54,988 nucleotides of DNA from Spirochaetales bacterium (GTDB lineage: Bacteria; Spirochaetota; Spirochaetia; DSM-2461). The first letter of the stretch is position 1. Each line of letters begins with the position of its first letter. Positions 47,800-54,928 of this stretch are shown piece after piece. The position numbers were made by a program, and so were the translations under genes. The notes under the pieces were generated by a model, which ran no database searches, was not told the origin of the DNA, and saw only the letters and a list, made by a program, of their open reading frames with translations. The DNA is taken from the NCBI GenBank assembly GCA_016936555.1, contig JAFGXR010000059.1, forward strand, positions 1-54,988, given 5' to 3'.

Positions 47800-48631
47800 T
47801 CACTTCCTGCATTCCGGGAGATAATAGTCTATCATCCCCCTGGTTATTTTTTTTCCGGAGCACAGTTCTCCGTAGAAGCGGCCGCTTTTGCGGATTCTTC
47901 TCTCCTGTGTTTCGTAATCCACTTCGATGAGGCCGAAACGCGGGCCGTAGCCGTCATTCCATTCCAGATTGTCGAGCAGCGACCAGTGATAGTACCGCCT
48001 GACATCGACTCCCTCATCGAGCAGCTTCCGTATCTGGGCCATATGGTCATAGATAAAGCGGGCTCTTTTGGCATCGCGGGCATCGGGAATGCCGTTTTCC
48101 GTTATGTAGACGGGAAGGCCGTACTTCTCAAAGGTTTTCCCGACCGTGCGGTACAGCCCCTCGGGATAGATTTCCCAGCCCAGATCGTTCAGGCGATCAT
48201 CAGGCAGGTTTTCCTCGACCCGGACTTCTCCGAAAAGCGTCGCCGGATTCAGGCTCGAATGGATCAGATGGCGCGAGTAGTAATTTATGCCTATGAAATC
48301 GCAGAAAAGGCCTTTGCCCCGGGGATGGCCCGAGCCGACGGGAAAAGAGAGCCGTCCCTCGACCATGCCCCTTAAAAACAGACTGTGGAACGAATAGTCC
48401 ATGAGCTTCAGGCTCAGTCCGGTAGATTTCCTGATTCATCTCCTTCATCAGGGCGATCTCCTCCTCCACTCTGTTCCAGTGGTCCGCCGCTGTGAGGGAG
48501 CTGGCTCCCCCCTCGATCTTTCCTTTCAGCGACCAGTGGTACCAGTTGCTGTTTTTATCGCCGCCTTCGATCTGGGTGGCCGCCGTGGCGCTTCCCAGAA
48601 GGAAATCCCGGGGCAATTCAATCTCTTTCAT
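47800..48631 (-). pseudogene. GH1 beta-glucosidase with internal deletion and frame change
   Basis: ATG 48631 (GGAGAA upstream) begins a typical GH1 start, ELPRDFLLGSATAATQIEGG, and reads to MKEMNQEIYR, the usual end of the second barrel region. At about 48400-48425 the frame breaks. The other frame resumes with SFHSLFLRGMVEGRLSFPVG and runs through NYYSRHL, VYITENG (nucleophile Glu) and YHWSLLDNLEWNDGYGPRFG to the normal end at 47800. About 200 residues in between, including the NEP acid/base block, are missing. The enzyme cannot be active. It lies in an operon with a truncated TetR gene (ATGA overlap) and an intact symporter. Confidence 0.87.
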
Positions 48632-49089
48632 CTGTTCTCCTTCAATGCGTCGATATACAGGCTCACCTGATGGGCGATGAGTTCCACGCCCCGGTATCCC
48701 GTCTCTCTTATGATGCGGCTGTCCCGCGCGGCCACTCTCTGGGCAAAGCTCCACAGCACATTCGATATGGTGGCAATTGTCAGGGATATATCGATCTGGT
48801 CCCGTATCGATTTGTCGCCGATCCCCCGCTCGAGCATCTCCCTGAGCAGGTCATCGGATTCCAGAATGACGCCCTCGAATCTCTCCCTCTCCTCCTCCGA
48901 TGCGACCGATTCCTTTTCCCCTTTGAAATAGAAGTCGAATTCTCCCAGGTATCTCATGACATCGAGACGGTCGGACATATATTCGATCAGTTTTCCGAGA
49001 AAGGTTTCCAGCCGGTCCAGACCGGACCCCCGAAGCGGAGAAGTTTTTCGTCCGGCGTCTGTTCGGGCAGGACCGGGAGAAACATGCAA
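48628..49089 (-). pseudogene. TetR family regulator, N-terminal DNA-binding domain missing
   Basis: The frame encodes what looks like the ligand-binding/dimer half of a TetR regulator: LDRLETFLGKLIEYMSDRLD, FDFYFKGEKES, SDDLLREMLERGIG and a helical C-terminus. No helix-turn-helix sequence is found in any frame between 49090 and the divergent gene at 49248, a space that is also too short for a normal 60-residue DNA-binding domain. The first residues (HVSPGPARTDAGRK) look like non-native filler read from a TTG. It overlaps the GH1 gene by four bases, so it was the first gene of the damaged operon. Confidence 0.65.
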
Positions 49090-49928: not shown

Positions 49929-50348
49929 CTAGAGTACTCTCAGAATTCTGGGCGTTTCTTTCTCTGCGTTTCTATCCTTTGAAAGCAGGATGAGCCCCAC
50001 AGCTAATGAAAATCCGGCCGCTCCGGCAATTATGCTCTTAGCTGACGACCAGCCAAGAAGATAAGCTGCCGGAATATACATGGCGGCAAATAAAAAGGGC
50101 GGAAGTAGGATTATGCGGAAGAAGGCAAGCAAAGCAACAGATGAGGGGATTTCCATCTCCACCACATTACCTGTCCGCAAAGGAAGATTCTCCGGGTTGT
50201 CTGCCTCTATAAGCCGGGTTTTCCCCTTCCGGCTGCAGTGATCGCAGCTCCCGGACCCGCAGGAATGGGCTTCCCCCGATTCGGAACTGAATGCTTCTAC
50301 ATATATTTCATTATCAGTAATAGTTCTGATTATTCCTTTGTTTATCAT
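49929..50348 (-). CDS. rseC: RseC/MucC family membrane protein
   Basis: This 139-residue protein has an N-terminal soluble part with four Cys in CGSGSCDHCSRKGK, the RseC/MucC signature, followed by two membrane helices (about 70-90 and 98-118). RseC-family proteins are linked to Rnf complexes (SoxR reduction) and often to iron-sulfur redox work. It is divergent from the Rnf/NQR operon here by 107 bases, which supports a shared task. The precise role in this organism is unknown. Confidence 0.88.
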   Translation of the reverse strand: MINKGIIRTITDNEIYVEAFSSESGEAHSCGSGSCDHCSRKGKTRLIEADNPENLPLRTGNVVEMEIPSSVALLAFFRIILLPPFLFAAMYIPAAYLLGWSSAKSIIAGAAGFSLAVGLILLSKDRNAEKETPRILRVL

Positions 50349-50455: not shown

Positions 50456-51358
50456 GTGTTTCAGAAACAGAATATGATGAGGAAGGTGCTGTATTCGCTT
50501 ATACCGGTCTACCTTTTCTCCATCTATCTATACGGATGGCGGGCACTGGCCATCGCCGCTGTTGTCTTTCCGCTGGGAATTGCGACGGAATTCATCTTTA
50601 CAAAACGCAACAATAAAAAGGTTTCGGAAGCCGTCCTGGTCACCTGCACTCTTTTTACTCTCGCCATGCCGCCCATGATCCCCTTGTGGATTGCCGGTAT
50701 CGGAATTATTTTCGGCGTCATGTTCGGAAAAGCCATCTACGGCGGATTCGGCCGGAATGTGTTCAATCCCGCCATTACGGGACGCCTTTTCATCTACATC
50801 ACTTTTCCCCTGCTCATGACCACCAGCTGGATGACTCCCGGCCGTTTCGGCACCCTCGGAGCCGATGCCGTATCGAGCGCCACATCTCTCGAGCTGATGA
50901 GGTCCGGGCAGATTCCCGAATTGACCAACCTTCTTTTCGGCATCCGCATGGGAACCCTCGGCGGCAGCGCCGTAATTCTGATCGTCCTGGCTGCGATATA
51001 CCTCCTGGTGACCAAAACGGCCAGCTGGCGTTCCATGATAGCCATGCTCGTCTCTTTTCTCGGGCTCCAGGCGATGCTCTATTATACCGGAGTTATTCAG
51101 GCGCCGCCCCTTCACAGCCTCATGTCGGGAAGCGTTCTCTTCGTCGGAGTTTTCATGGTGACCGACCCCATTTCATCCCCCAAGAAAAACCTGGCTCTGG
51201 TGCTTTACGGAATTATCATCGGGGTGTCCGTCGCCCTGATCCGCGACTTCTCCCTTTTCCCCGAAGGAACCAGCTTCGGTATTCTCATGGGGAACATGTT
51301 CGCTCCGCTTCTCGATGAGCTGGCCGCGAAAACGGAAAAGAAGAAGGTGAAAGCATGA
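50456..51358 (+). CDS. Rnf/NQR subunit RnfD/NqrB (FMN-bearing membrane protein)
   Basis: The 300-residue membrane protein has about nine helices and the family block GKAIYGGFGRNVFNPAITGR. The covalent FMN site is DAVSSATSLE with Thr143 in SSAT (SGAT in most relatives). At 300 residues it is close to RnfD and lacks the longer N-terminus of NqrB. It carries electrons across the membrane while the pump moves Na+ or H+. GTG 50456 follows AAGGGGG; a later ATG at residue 7 or 8 is possible. It overlaps the next gene by four bases. Confidence 0.9.
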   Translation: MFQKQNMMRKVLYSLIPVYLFSIYLYGWRALAIAAVVFPLGIATEFIFTKRNNKKVSEAVLVTCTLFTLAMPPMIPLWIAGIGIIFGVMFGKAIYGGFGRNVFNPAITGRLFIYITFPLLMTTSWMTPGRFGTLGADAVSSATSLELMRSGQIPELTNLLFGIRMGTLGGSAVILIVLAAIYLLVTKTASWRSMIAMLVSFLGLQAMLYYTGVIQAPPLHSLMSGSVLFVGVFMVTDPISSPKKNLALVLYGIIIGVSVALIRDFSLFPEGTSFGILMGNMFAPLLDELAAKTEKKKVKA

Positions 51359-51960
51359 AAAAAGACAGTTTGATCTACACGGTTCTCGTAACCGCCGTCT
51401 CGGCTTTTATCTTTGTTTTCCTTCTCTCTCTTGCCAACGGCGCCACCAGTGAAAAAGTCGCTGAAAACCAGCGTGTCCTCGAGGCTAAAGCCTATCTGAC
51501 CGCCGCCGGCATTGCCGTTAAGGAAGATATGGATGTGGAAAAGGAACTGATGACCGTCTTCCCGCAATTCGATAGTGCCAGACCCTATCAGGAAACGACC
51601 CTGAACGGGAAAAAGCTGATCGTCGCTCCTTTTCAGGGCAGCGGGCTCTGGGGAACCATTTATGGTGTACTGGGTATGAGCGCTGACTTCTCCCGCATCG
51701 TCGGGATGGAAATCCTTTCCCATTCGGAAACCCCCGGACTGGGGGGGCGCATCGATGAGGCCTGGTTCAAAGACCAGTTCAGCGGAGAATACGCCGTCGA
51801 CGGCATCGTCATCCGTCACGGTGGCGGAAAAGGCGATACCGATAAGGACAACGGAGAAGTGGACGGGATTACCGGAGCCTCGAGAACAAGCGATTCGCTC
51901 CAGCAGATTATCAATGACCAGATTGATAAGATGAAGTCCGCCAAAGGAGGTATGAACTGA
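51355..51960 (+). CDS. Rnf/NQR subunit RnfG/NqrC (periplasmic flavoprotein)
   Basis: The 201-residue protein has one N-terminal membrane helix (about 7-28) and a periplasmic FMN-binding domain. The block HSETPGLGGRIDE is characteristic. The flavin attachment motif is DGITGASRTSD, with Ser176 where NqrC of Vibrio has Thr. ApbE-type transferases can use either, so it is probably still modified. It passes electrons to the D subunit. Overlap with the neighbours (four bases before, one base after) shows tight co-translation. Confidence 0.92.
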   Translation: MKKDSLIYTVLVTAVSAFIFVFLLSLANGATSEKVAENQRVLEAKAYLTAAGIAVKEDMDVEKELMTVFPQFDSARPYQETTLNGKKLIVAPFQGSGLWGTIYGVLGMSADFSRIVGMEILSHSETPGLGGRIDEAWFKDQFSGEYAVDGIVIRHGGGKGDTDKDNGEVDGITGASRTSDSLQQIINDQIDKMKSAKGGMN

Positions 51961-52571
51961 TGAACGGTGACTCTCCCGCAAAAATACTCAAGGAAAACGT
52001 GTGGACCAATAACCCCATCTTCATACAGATCCTGGGGATCTGTTCCACTCTTGCCGTAACCAATAACCTGACCAATACGCTGATCATGACCCTGGGGGTT
52101 ATGTTTGTCGCGGCTTTCACCAATATAACCGTTTCCCTGCTGAAGCAGGTGATTCCCCGGAAAGTCCGCATGATCGTCCAGACGCTTATCATCGCCTTCT
52201 ATGTCATCATCGTCGACATTCTGCTCCGGGCCTATCTGCCGGAAATCAGTAAATCGCTCGGGCCCTATGTCGGCCTGATCATCACCAACTGCATCATCAT
52301 GGGACGAGCCGAAGCCTTCGCCCAGTCCCACGGGCCTCTTATTTCCGCCTGGGACGGACTGACTTCGGGACTGGGATACATGTGGGTGCTGATGCTCATC
52401 GCCTTTGTCCGGGAGATCCTGGGCTTCGGAACCGTTTTCGGCTATGCCGTTCTCCCGGAGACCTTCACCCCCTGGACCATCATGGTCATGGCTCCCAGCG
52501 CTTTCTTTCTGCTGGGATCGGTTCTCTGGATCGCCAAAGCGATCATACTGAAAAAGGAAAGGGGGAAATAA
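51960..52571 (+). CDS. Rnf/NQR subunit RnfE/NqrD
   Basis: The 203-residue protein has six membrane helices. LKENVWTNNPIFIQILGICSTLAVTN is the standard N-terminal block of RnfE/NqrD, and AYLPEISKSLGPYVGLIITNCIIMGRAEAF carries the Asn-Cys of the conserved helix pair. In the related complexes this subunit and its partner (next gene) hold an iron centre between them. It starts at the stop codon of the previous gene (TGATG) and leaves one base before the next. Confidence 0.95.
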   Translation: MNGDSPAKILKENVWTNNPIFIQILGICSTLAVTNNLTNTLIMTLGVMFVAAFTNITVSLLKQVIPRKVRMIVQTLIIAFYVIIVDILLRAYLPEISKSLGPYVGLIITNCIIMGRAEAFAQSHGPLISAWDGLTSGLGYMWVLMLIAFVREILGFGTVFGYAVLPETFTPWTIMVMAPSAFFLLGSVLWIAKAIILKKERGK

Positions 52572-52572
52572 T

Positions 52573-53166
52573 ATGGCTCCGGAAATTCATCCTATCGTAC
52601 TGCTTTTCGCCTCTGTCTTCACGAGCAACATTCTCCTGGCCAACTTCCTGGGAATGTGTTCCTTCATCTCCATTTCCAAGGACATGAAATCGGCCAACGG
52701 CCTCGGGCTGGCGGTAACGGTTGTGCTCACCATCACTTCCATGCTCAACTGGGTGCTGCTGAAATTCGTCATCATCCCTCTGGACCTGATCTATCTGCGC
52801 TACATCATCTTCATCATCGTAATCGCCGCGACGGTCCAGATCCTGGAGATGATCATCGACCGCGTCTCTCCGGCGCTCTATCTGTCGCTGGGAATTTTCC
52901 TCCCGCTGATTACGGTAAACTGCGCCATTCTCGGCGTGGCCCTTTTCATGCAGATCCGGGAATACAATTTCGTCCAGACCGTTGTTTTTTCCTTCGGTTC
53001 GGGCATCGGTTGGTGGCTCGCCATCATGGCCTTGTCGGCCATCAATAAAAAGATAGAAAAGGCGCCGGTTCCGCCGGCCCTCAAAGGCCCGGGAATCACC
53101 CTGATCACCATCGGCTTCATGGCCATGGCGTTCATCGGATTCTCCGGAATGCTGAGCGTACAGTAA
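52573..53166 (+). CDS. Rnf/NQR subunit RnfA/NqrE
   Basis: The 197-residue, six-helix membrane protein has TSNILLANFLGMCSFISISKD and ISLGIFLPLITVNCAILG-type LSLGIFLPLITVNCAILGVAL, the inverted counterpart of the RnfE/NqrD blocks with their Cys residues. It pairs with the preceding subunit. Length and position in the operon match other Rnf and NQR clusters. Confidence 0.95.
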   Translation: MAPEIHPIVLLFASVFTSNILLANFLGMCSFISISKDMKSANGLGLAVTVVLTITSMLNWVLLKFVIIPLDLIYLRYIIFIIVIAATVQILEMIIDRVSPALYLSLGIFLPLITVNCAILGVALFMQIREYNFVQTVVFSFGSGIGWWLAIMALSAINKKIEKAPVPPALKGPGITLITIGFMAMAFIGFSGMLSVQ

Positions 53167-53179
53167 GGAGGCTCGAGAG

Positions 53180-54289
53180 ATGATGATAATCATAGCGCCG
53201 GTCTCTGTCGCCCTCATCGCGGCTATTCTGGCAGCGGCCATTTCCATCGTGGACAAAATCGTCAACAACTATGGAGAAGTGGAAGTCGACATCAACGACG
53301 GCAAGAAAAAAATCAAATTGAACGGAGGGGAGTCTCTCCTCTCGTCTCTGGCGGGACAGGAAATCTTCGTTCCCTCCGCCTGCGGGGGAAGGGGTACCTG
53401 CGGGGCCTGCAAATGCCAGGTCACCAGTGATGTCGGGCCCTATCTGCCGACGGAAACGCCATTTATGACAAAGGAAAACCTCGCCGACAACATCCGCCTG
53501 GCCTGCCAGGTGAAAATCAAGAGCGACATCTCCATTAAAATCCCCGACGATCTGTTCAACATTAAAAAATACGATTCCATCGTGAAATCCATCGTCGATG
53601 TGACCCATGATATCAAAGAGGTCACCTTCGATCTCCAGGGAGAGGAGATTAACTTCGAAGCAGGAAAATACGTTCAGCTTGTCGTGCCTCCCCACGGGAA
53701 GATCAAAGGATCGACGCAGCGGGCTTATTCCATGGCGTCAAGACCCGGGGAAAAGGATATCGTCAGACTTCTTATCAGACTGGTTCCCGGCGGTATCGCC
53801 ACGACCTGGGTTCATACGGAACTGAAGGAAGGGGACCGGGTTGAACTGGTCGGTCCGTTCGGAGATTTCTTCAGGACGCCGACCGATTCGACCATGATCT
53901 GCGTCGCCGGAGGGTCCGGTATGGCTCCCTTTATGTCTATTCTCTTCGATATGCTCGACACAGGTGAGCTGGACCGCGAAGTCTGGTATTTCTTCGGAGC
54001 CCGGACGGTGAAAGATATGTTCTATCTCGATGAGCTGAGAGAGCTTGAGAAAAAGCTGCCCAACTTCCACTTCGTTCCGGCTCTGTCCGAACCGGAAGAA
54101 GGCACGCCCTGGGACGGCGCGACGGGACTGATTACCGATGTGCTCGATAAGTATCTGAAAGAGGAAATCGGAACGGAAAAGAAACGGGAAGGCTATCTCT
54201 GCGGCAGCCCCGGTATGATCAACGCCTGCAACAATGTCTTTACGGCGAACAAAGTATCGCTCGACGATATCTTCTACGATAAATTCTGA
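53180..54289 (+). CDS. nqrF: NqrF-type NADH dehydrogenase subunit ([2Fe-2S], FAD)
   Basis: The 369-residue protein has an N-terminal membrane helix (about 3-25). A plant-type ferredoxin domain follows, with Cys68, Cys74, Cys77 and Cys109 (ACGGRGTCGACKCQV, then LACQVK). Next are an FAD domain (AYSMASRP) and an NAD(H) domain (VAGGSGMAPFMSIL, then YLCGSPGMINACNNV). This is NqrF, the NADH entry point of Na+-NQR, and is not found in standard Rnf operons, which use RnfC and RnfB. It follows AAGGAGG. Its union with RnfD/G/E/A-like subunits makes this operon NQR-like, but without NqrA. Confidence 0.95.
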   Translation: MMIIIAPVSVALIAAILAAAISIVDKIVNNYGEVEVDINDGKKKIKLNGGESLLSSLAGQEIFVPSACGGRGTCGACKCQVTSDVGPYLPTETPFMTKENLADNIRLACQVKIKSDISIKIPDDLFNIKKYDSIVKSIVDVTHDIKEVTFDLQGEEINFEAGKYVQLVVPPHGKIKGSTQRAYSMASRPGEKDIVRLLIRLVPGGIATTWVHTELKEGDRVELVGPFGDFFRTPTDSTMICVAGGSGMAPFMSILFDMLDTGELDREVWYFFGARTVKDMFYLDELRELEKKLPNFHFVPALSEPEEGTPWDGATGLITDVLDKYLKEEIGTEKKREGYLCGSPGMINACNNVFTANKVSLDDIFYDKF

Positions 54290-54303
54290 TGGAGGTCCTG
54301 TAA

Positions 54304-54756
54304 ATGAAAATGTCACCGGCCATGATAATGGCCCAGGAAAATATGCAGCCGGGGGTCATCACCGAAGAGGGATTCCTCGGAGACGAAACCATCCCCATAG
54401 TGGATATGATCGCCCGTGACGAGGGGGAGATGCGCGATGCCGGATTGTCCTTTGTCGATACGGCGAAGAGACTGGCTTACTTTATGGAAGAAGGCCAGAA
54501 AGGGCTGGGCGAACCGGTTACCATTGATGACAAATGGCTTATCCGCGTCGTCGATCCCCGGGGTCAGCTTCCCTGTCCCTTCAAGGACGGCTTCTTTCAC
54601 AAGATGACGGCTCAGATCACCCGTAAGGAGACTAATGAGTCTGTCGTCGTCACCGATCTTTCCATCCATCTTTTGCGGGAGCATCATTTCATCGAAGGGA
54701 AAGGATCGCGGTTCAGACTTGAGCCTCAGGTCATGAAAAGGGTTCTCTTTGATTGA
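54304..54756 (+). CDS. Uncharacterised last gene of the Rnf/NQR operon
   Basis: The function is not recognised. The 150-residue soluble protein follows GGAGG with ideal spacing, 14 bases after nqrF and before a terminator, so it belongs to the operon. Visible parts are a helical first half (FLGDETIPIVDMIARDEGEM, then LSFVDTAKRLAYFMEEGQKG) and a beta-rich second half with DDKWLIRVVDPRGQLPCPFK (single Cys) and FIEGKGSRFRLEPQ. There is no signal peptide or membrane helix. It could be an assembly factor or a small cytoplasmic subunit replacing part of NqrA. That is inference from position only. Confidence 0.75.
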   Translation: MKMSPAMIMAQENMQPGVITEEGFLGDETIPIVDMIARDEGEMRDAGLSFVDTAKRLAYFMEEGQKGLGEPVTIDDKWLIRVVDPRGQLPCPFKDGFFHKMTAQITRKETNESVVVTDLSIHLLREHHFIEGKGSRFRLEPQVMKRVLFD

Positions 54757-54928
54757 TTGTATCAAGAATATCCGGGGAAAACTTGCTCCGGGTATTTTTT
54801 TTCTATTTTTCATTGTCAGCCTGATTCAGGCTGAAGCTCCTGTAAAACTGGATAATCTGGAAAGCAGGATAAGTCTCGACGGAGATTGGGAGACATGGCC
54901 GGGTCTTGATTCCCGCTCTAAAATTTAA
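54749..54928 (+). CDS. Possible short exported peptide, doubtful
   Basis: A 59-residue frame from a TTG reads KLAPGIFFLFFIVSLIQAEA, a good signal-peptide shape, then KLDNLESRISLDGDWETWPG, and stops. It overlaps the previous gene by eight bases and runs through the terminator hairpin. The ISLDGDWE segment recalls the start of extracellular sensor domains of the 7TM-DISM type. It may be a remnant of a truncated gene or chance. Confidence 0.2.
   Translation: MIDCIKNIRGKLAPGIFFLFFIVSLIQAEAPVKLDNLESRISLDGDWETWPGLDSRSKI
54768..54802 (+). terminator. Rho-independent terminator of the Rnf/NQR operon
   Basis: ATATCCGGG (54768-54776) pairs with TCCGGGTAT (54787-54795) with G-T wobbles, over a ten-base loop, and is followed by eight T. 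It starts 11 bases after the last stop codon of the operon. Confidence 0.85.

Follow-up and report, generated by a model that had tools for sequence, protein, structure and literature searches.

The window analysed here, a 54,988-nucleotide stretch, is one entire contig (JAFGXR010000059.1) of the 4.73 Mb, 134-contig, 95% complete genome of a Spirochaetales bacterium (GCA_016936555.1). Near its end lies an operon for the core of an RNF/NQR-family redox-driven ion pump (subunits B, C, D and E), joined by NqrF and by a conserved gene for a 150-residue protein, here called h150. All six open reading frames run head to tail on the plus strand in the order B-C-D-E-F-h150. An RseC/MucC-type gene diverges from the operon, as it does in 12 related loci too, and a strong terminator-like hairpin stands directly after the h150 frame, so h150 completes the transcription unit; no Rfam match was found near the operon. 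The features are as follows:

49929..50348, minus strand: RseC/MucC-type gene, divergent from the operon (PF04246, E 8.8e-11)
50456..51358, plus strand: subunit B, RnfD/NqrB family, 300 residues, GTG start (PF03116, E 9.5e-76)
51355..51960, plus strand: subunit C, NqrC/RnfG family, 201 residues (PF04205, FMN_bind)
51960..52571, plus strand: subunit D, NqrD/RnfE family, 203 residues (PRK09292, 241.8 bits)
52573..53166, plus strand: subunit E, NqrE/RnfA family, 197 residues (TIGR01940, 223.5 bits; Pfam Rnf-Nqr)
53180..54289, plus strand: subunit F, NqrF, 369 residues (TIGR01941, 285.7 bits; Fer2, FAD_binding_6, NAD_binding_1)
54304..54756, plus strand: h150, conserved 150-residue protein of no known family, directly 3' of nqrF
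54764-54799, plus strand: intrinsic-terminator-like hairpin closing the operon, 14-pair stem and T run

The frames of 300, 201, 203 and 197 residues and the NqrF described in an initial annotation of this window are real and placed as claimed, and both Pfam and NCBIfam agree with them. The bounds it gave, a divergent rseC on one side and a terminator on the other, also stand, as does the lack of NqrA, RnfB and RnfC, borne out across positions 50456-54289; its span for the operon (50456-54756) is right, but the 150-residue gene inside that span was left without account. Pfam reads the operon as PF03116, FMN_bind, Rnf-Nqr, Rnf-Nqr and Fer2+FAD_binding_6+NAD_binding_1. Subunit B is Rnf-sized, as had been stated, without an NqrB-type N-terminal extension, and scores 200 bits with the NCBIfam rnfD model vs 190 and 167 bits with two nqrB models. 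The best NCBIfam models for C, D, E and F are nqrC, nqrD, nqrE and nqrF. Subunit D exceeds two cut-offs, those of PRK09292 (NqrD; 241.8 vs 235) and PRK12405 (RsxE; 191.1 vs 184), and B, C, E and F all score below theirs, NqrF lying just under its equivalog cut-off of 295.

The initial annotation took the core to be Rnf-like with an NqrF added, a view that the trees overturn. In a concatenated B, C, D and E phylogeny built with IQ-TREE (and also with FastTree) together with RNF and NQR reference operons, the NqrA-less operons (HYB) are monophyletic (100/100), NQR is monophyletic (100/100), the two groups join with support of 99.1/99, and all NqrF-bearing operons are separated from RNF (100/100). 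The operon of the window thus falls outside the NQR clade, as sister to it and far from RNF. RNF served as the outgroup; this rooting is assumed and agrees with the published derivation of NQR from RNF (PMC4014512, PMC12174285). RNF stands apart in all single-gene trees, and HYB is a clade in those of B, D, E and F; the C tree and certain sister relations in the single-gene trees are less resolved. One locus initially counted as a member (L102) proved to cluster among NQR-side loci and was left out of the clade.

Scanning bacteria and archaea with one genome for each species gave 80 loci, whose record labels include Spirochaetota, Clostridia/Bacillota, Marinitoga (Thermotogota), KSB1, Cloacimonadota, Kiritimatiellota, Krumholzibacteriota, WOR-3, Verrucomicrobia, Planctomycetota, Riflebacteria, Delongbacteria, Neomarinimicrobiota and others. 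Most of them keep the B-C-D-E-F operon and are without NqrA, RnfC and RnfB; certain loci are one genome reached twice by different routes, and locus counts are therefore not species counts. Within Spirochaetota, 29 of 296 genomes carry an NqrF that is at least 46% identical, and 20 of the 26 genomes of the window's own order have an NqrF of the operon's kind or a more distant one. One spirochaete contig bears a tandem pair of NqrA-less operons, the second cut by the contig end (L158:5731-14129).

Most core subunits score nearest to NQR models, as would be expected if this were an ordinary NQR whose nqrA had been displaced, a reading to which we assign a negligible probability. No NqrA was found in the own genome at E<=0.001, and none of the 26 genomes of the order has a clear one, two weak sub-cut-off matches being all they yield; the clear NqrA genes of Spirochaetota are in other families. 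Among 50 genomes checked, 47 of which belong to the clade, a clear NqrA occurs in 4 of these 47, each time as part of a complete NQR operon that also encodes a long NqrB (frames of 394-410 residues), and to judge by their operons the two systems coexist in these carriers as separate complexes. Matches to NqrA with E-values of 1e-4 to 1e-7 were judged RnfC-type by frame length and score, canonical NqrA reaching about 1e-23 or better. A displaced nqrA was rejected on these grounds, and the relatives have a lineage-wide NqrA-less system.

The situation is different for the other two genes named as missing. Of the two PF03116 genes in the own genome, one is subunit B of the operon and the other is an rnfD on a different contig (C15), where it belongs to a complete rnfCDGEAB operon that also holds the sole rnfC above the cut-off. 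RnfB and RnfC belong to that operon, so the cell is not missing them and its RNF is a separate system; no RnfB was found in the NqrA-less operon, and none that is convincing in the other carrier loci. The genome search proposed with the initial annotation therefore leaves nqrA absent and rnfB and rnfC present. Of the two explanations offered there, an nqrA encoded elsewhere has fallen, whereas a pump driven by NADH with a different acceptor probably holds, except that it is not merely reduced, since h150 accompanies it.

The cofactor sites of the core are conserved throughout the clade. The flavin mononucleotide (FMN) site of subunit B is Thr143 in an SSAT motif, with threonine kept in 97/97 clade members, and that of subunit C is Ser176 in TGAS, with threonine or serine kept in 100/100. 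Cys28 and Cys111 of subunit D are both kept in 103/103, and Cys29 and Cys117 of subunit E in 107/108 and 106/108, respectively. Subunit F combines an N-terminal anchor with a 2Fe-2S ferredoxin domain (Cys68/74/77/109) and domains for flavin adenine dinucleotide (FAD) and NAD. The AlphaFold2 model of subunit B superposes on RnfD/NqrB structures with template modelling scores of 0.75-0.88, and ApbE was found in all 22 genomes tested. Together, the FMN sites, the D and E cysteines, ApbE and the fit of the B model indicate that electrons very probably have an unbroken path from NADH through FAD, 2Fe-2S, the D/E 2Fe-2S cluster and the FMN of C to the two flavins of B, FMN and riboflavin.

NADH would thus reduce the FAD of NqrF, and the 2Fe-2S cluster of NqrF would hand the electrons to the 2Fe-2S cluster at the D/E interface. 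From there they would traverse the membrane to reach the covalent FMN of C and then move on to the FMN and riboflavin that B holds close to the cytoplasmic face, a flow that would drive export of Na+ (or H+) as in RNF and NQR. We are confident that the operon encodes an NADH-driven ion pump, with pumping assigned by homology. The electrons might instead exit outward, with the FMN of C passing them to an acceptor beyond the cytoplasm, and the complex would then be an NADH-driven exporter of electrons; flavinylated extracytosolic proteins do such work and partial NQR/RNF-like systems have been proposed to act likewise (PMC8238504). This is improbable: an outward-only path has no need of the FMN threonine of B, which every clade member keeps, and the neighbouring genes include no conserved secreted partner.

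NqrF-bearing operons outside the clade bear on the origin of the missing subunit. Deeper operons that join NqrF with an RnfC-like protein are of two kinds (L214 and L051-L053), their order being less certain (74.1/91). In an Anammoxibacter locus (L214:3729-10083), an RnfC-like protein with two 4Fe-4S motifs and no GxGGAxF motif accompanies B, C, D, E and NqrF. A second hybrid type occurs in the window's order (L050, L051, L052 and L053, of which L050 is in the own genus), with an NqrF about 39% identical and, where read, a subunit B without the FMN threonine; in L052 and L053 a short RnfC-like iron-sulfur protein comes before B. On the NQR side, the NqrA-like subunits of L200 and L217 keep two 4Fe-4S motifs as in RnfC, unlike the canonical NqrA proteins checked, and are possible intermediates between RnfC and NqrA. 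Taken together, these subunit types suggest an order of losses in which RnfC would first have lost its NAD site, kept its clusters for a while and become the cofactor-less NqrA, the NqrA-less clade having lost the subunit.

The h150 gene lies directly 3' of nqrF in 101 of 113 loci; of the remaining 12, two are on contigs that end too early and ten are without it. It was found in 27 of the 296 Spirochaetota genomes, namely 26 of the 29 carriers and one further genome (G046) in which a partial h150 and a fragment of NqrF lie on separate contigs, so that within Spirochaetota it is essentially confined to genomes with the NqrA-less operon. The protein is soluble and mildly acidic, and with at most two cysteines it is not an iron-sulfur protein. 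Its sequence has no match in Pfam, NCBIfam, PHROGs or PDB sequences. AlphaFold2 models it with high confidence (predicted local distance difference test 95.7, predicted template modelling score 0.89), and a Foldseek search of the PDB with this model returned no match at E<=0.001, the best VIA-align Z being 2.6, although such weak fold matches do not prove a new fold. We consider it probable that h150 is a subunit or assembly factor, and it may take the place of NqrA/RnfC as a cofactor-less docking or stabilizing subunit.

In NQR, the quinone site is formed by two N-terminal helices of NqrB (PMC12174285), and inhibitor sites have been described (PMC9325719). The median number of residues before the Glu144 equivalent is 44 in the clade vs 113 in NQR and 62 in RNF, and by this comparison the quinone-site helices are missing from subunit B of the clade. 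RnfC, through which electrons exit in RNF, is missing from the operon as well. A UbiA-family (UbiA-type prenyltransferase) gene is absent from 5 of 28 carriers, which therefore probably make no quinone. With the quinone-site helices and RnfC missing, carriers without UbiA and the rubredoxin neighbours described below, we rank a cytoplasmic acceptor, with rubredoxin as the likeliest, ahead of quinone. That the acceptor is cytoplasmic and other than quinone is the reading we moderately favour, and the 4Fe-4S motifs kept in the NqrA/RnfC subunit of NqrF-bearing relatives are compatible with such an exit. From B, electrons would go to a soluble one-electron carrier in the cytoplasm, most likely rubredoxin, which would feed rubrerythrin, superoxide reductase and flavodiiron proteins.

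A rubredoxin gene is present within 13 of 113 loci vs 0 of 51 controls (RNF, NQR and other), and genes for rubrerythrin, ferritin, desulfoferrodoxin or flavodiiron proteins in 14 loci vs 0 controls. In six genomes from separate branches, rubredoxin abuts the operon on the same strand: it follows h150 in two Spirochaetota (L097; L098, which shares its genome with L175) and in two loci of Phycisphaerae type (L206, L211), and precedes subunit B in Kiritimatiellae and Verrucomicrobia loci (L195, L218), the family being assigned by NCBIfam in five genomes and by Pfam in L206. Mapped on the NqrF tree, the adjacency takes 4 Fitch changes vs 6.9 expected at random, and four changes imply gain or retention on several distinct branches. 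Rubrerythrin, desulfoferrodoxin and flavodiiron enzymes usually receive their electrons from rubredoxin, and the step from NADH to rubredoxin spans about 0.3 V, enough to drive a pump.

Another cytoplasmic acceptor, such as flavodoxin, a flavoenzyme or iron handling through a VIT1/ferritin-like partner, is rather improbable. It finds its support in the closest relative (97% identical NqrF), where VIT1/rubrerythrin-like and flavodoxin-like genes lie within about 3 kb 3' of the operon (L034:1371-2862), but such a neighbourhood was noticed in this relative only, whereas rubredoxin recurs across several phyla. The contig of the window ends before the point matching these genes. In 14 spirochaete loci, pyruvate dehydrogenase and lipoate genes also turn up in the neighbourhood, but they do not point to an acceptor.

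Several observations weigh against the favoured reading. The control loci had less flanking DNA, and rubredoxin adjacency is confined to a minority of loci and is not shown by neighbours in the window's own order. In addition, h150 is missing in certain Clostridia and a few spirochaetes. Of the own genome, 1.11 of 4.73 Mb were read and gave neither rubredoxin nor rubrerythrin, which says little either way. Further points of this kind favour an NADH:(demethyl)menaquinone oxidoreductase that reduces quinone at B without NqrA, h150 perhaps completing the pocket: the clade is sister to NQR, the equivalents of NqrB Glu157, which binds quinone-site inhibitors, and of Gly140 are kept in 68/97 and 66/97 members, and a UbiA-family gene is present in 23 of the 28 carriers. 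In the own genome, an Ndh2/DoxX-like fusion, a polyprenyl synthase and a 1,4-dihydroxy-2-naphthoate polyprenyltransferase-like gene are consecutive on contig C14 (L129:2563-6346), so quinone may be present; the row is reminiscent of the quinone section in loci for extracellular electron transfer of Gram-positive bacteria. We nonetheless hold quinone reduction to be unlikely, given the missing helices, the carriers without any UbiA-family protein and the lack of a conserved quinol-consuming neighbour among the loci viewed. Rubredoxin specifically remains a tentative assignment, somewhat short of an even chance, and for the whole proposal, a third RNF/NQR-family redox-driven ion pump that reduces a cytoplasmic acceptor, likely rubredoxin, we put the chances at about even.

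Compared with Na+-NQR (NqrABCDEF, for example of Vibrio cholerae), its nearest clade, the system shares the NqrF input module, the B, C, D and E core and the FMN and cysteine sites, but its operon is without NqrA, its B is about 100 residues shorter N-terminally and lacks the quinone-site helices, and it has the extra 150-residue gene. With RNF (RnfCDGEAB), present in the same genome, it shares a homologous core and the size of the D/B subunit, but RnfB and RnfC are not in the operon, NADH enters through NqrF and the clade is separate (100/100). NAD(P)H also feeds partial RNF/NQR systems among the NQR/RNF-like flavinylated clusters, which differ in fusing the NqrB/RnfD domain to the NqrF domain and in having one of the two transmembrane electron paths (PMC8238504).

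NqrBCDEF without NqrA has been reported in Pseudothermotoga thermarum and lettingae, with the acceptor stated to be unknown (PMC4148951), and in Clostridium ultunense, for which an acceptor more negative than quinone was proposed and where a rubrerythrin (AZSU_10385) comes seven locus tags after the end of the operon at AZSU01_10378 (PMC5924567); for Candidatus Izimaplasma ZiA1, NqrBCDEF is listed and NqrA not discussed (PMC6256511). Gene set and order are alike in these genomes, and C. ultunense (L209) falls inside the clade, although without the downstream 150-residue gene. The reports do not describe the clade, its breadth, the 150-residue gene or the rubredoxin neighbourhood, and we found no literature on the clade, the 150-residue gene or the rubredoxin link in a search that left subscription papers mostly outside. 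By this search, what is new is the clade as a sister lineage of NQR, its 150-residue partner gene and the proposed link to rubredoxin, NqrA-less NqrBCDEF being known from genome reports.

Downstream of the operon, an open frame at 54756-54928 has a signal-peptide-like stretch and an SLDGDWE motif, ends at a stop and may be the remnant of a larger gene. Upstream, comparison with the closest relative shows about 480 bp missing at 48409-48422, within a gene of glycoside hydrolase family 1, and a further gap of about 630 bp at 49036-49077, at a TetR-type gene; both genes look broken in the window.

This pump family has two established forms, RNF and NQR, and a third one, monophyletic and with a partner gene of its own, would alter the view of how NQR originated. 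An NqrA-less clade spread across many anaerobic phyla is a natural test of the role of NqrA, and the acceptor question of the 2014 and 2018 genome papers becomes testable. Were rubredoxin the acceptor, anaerobes would possess a pump through which their defence against oxygen yields energy. It is possible, though less likely than not, that an ion-pumping NADH:rubredoxin oxidoreductase with a docking subunit is widespread, that anaerobes conserve energy through it while feeding oxygen and peroxide detoxification, and that quinone reduction was a late invention, as suggested by the iron-sulfur NqrA/RnfC subunits of NQR-side and deeper relatives.

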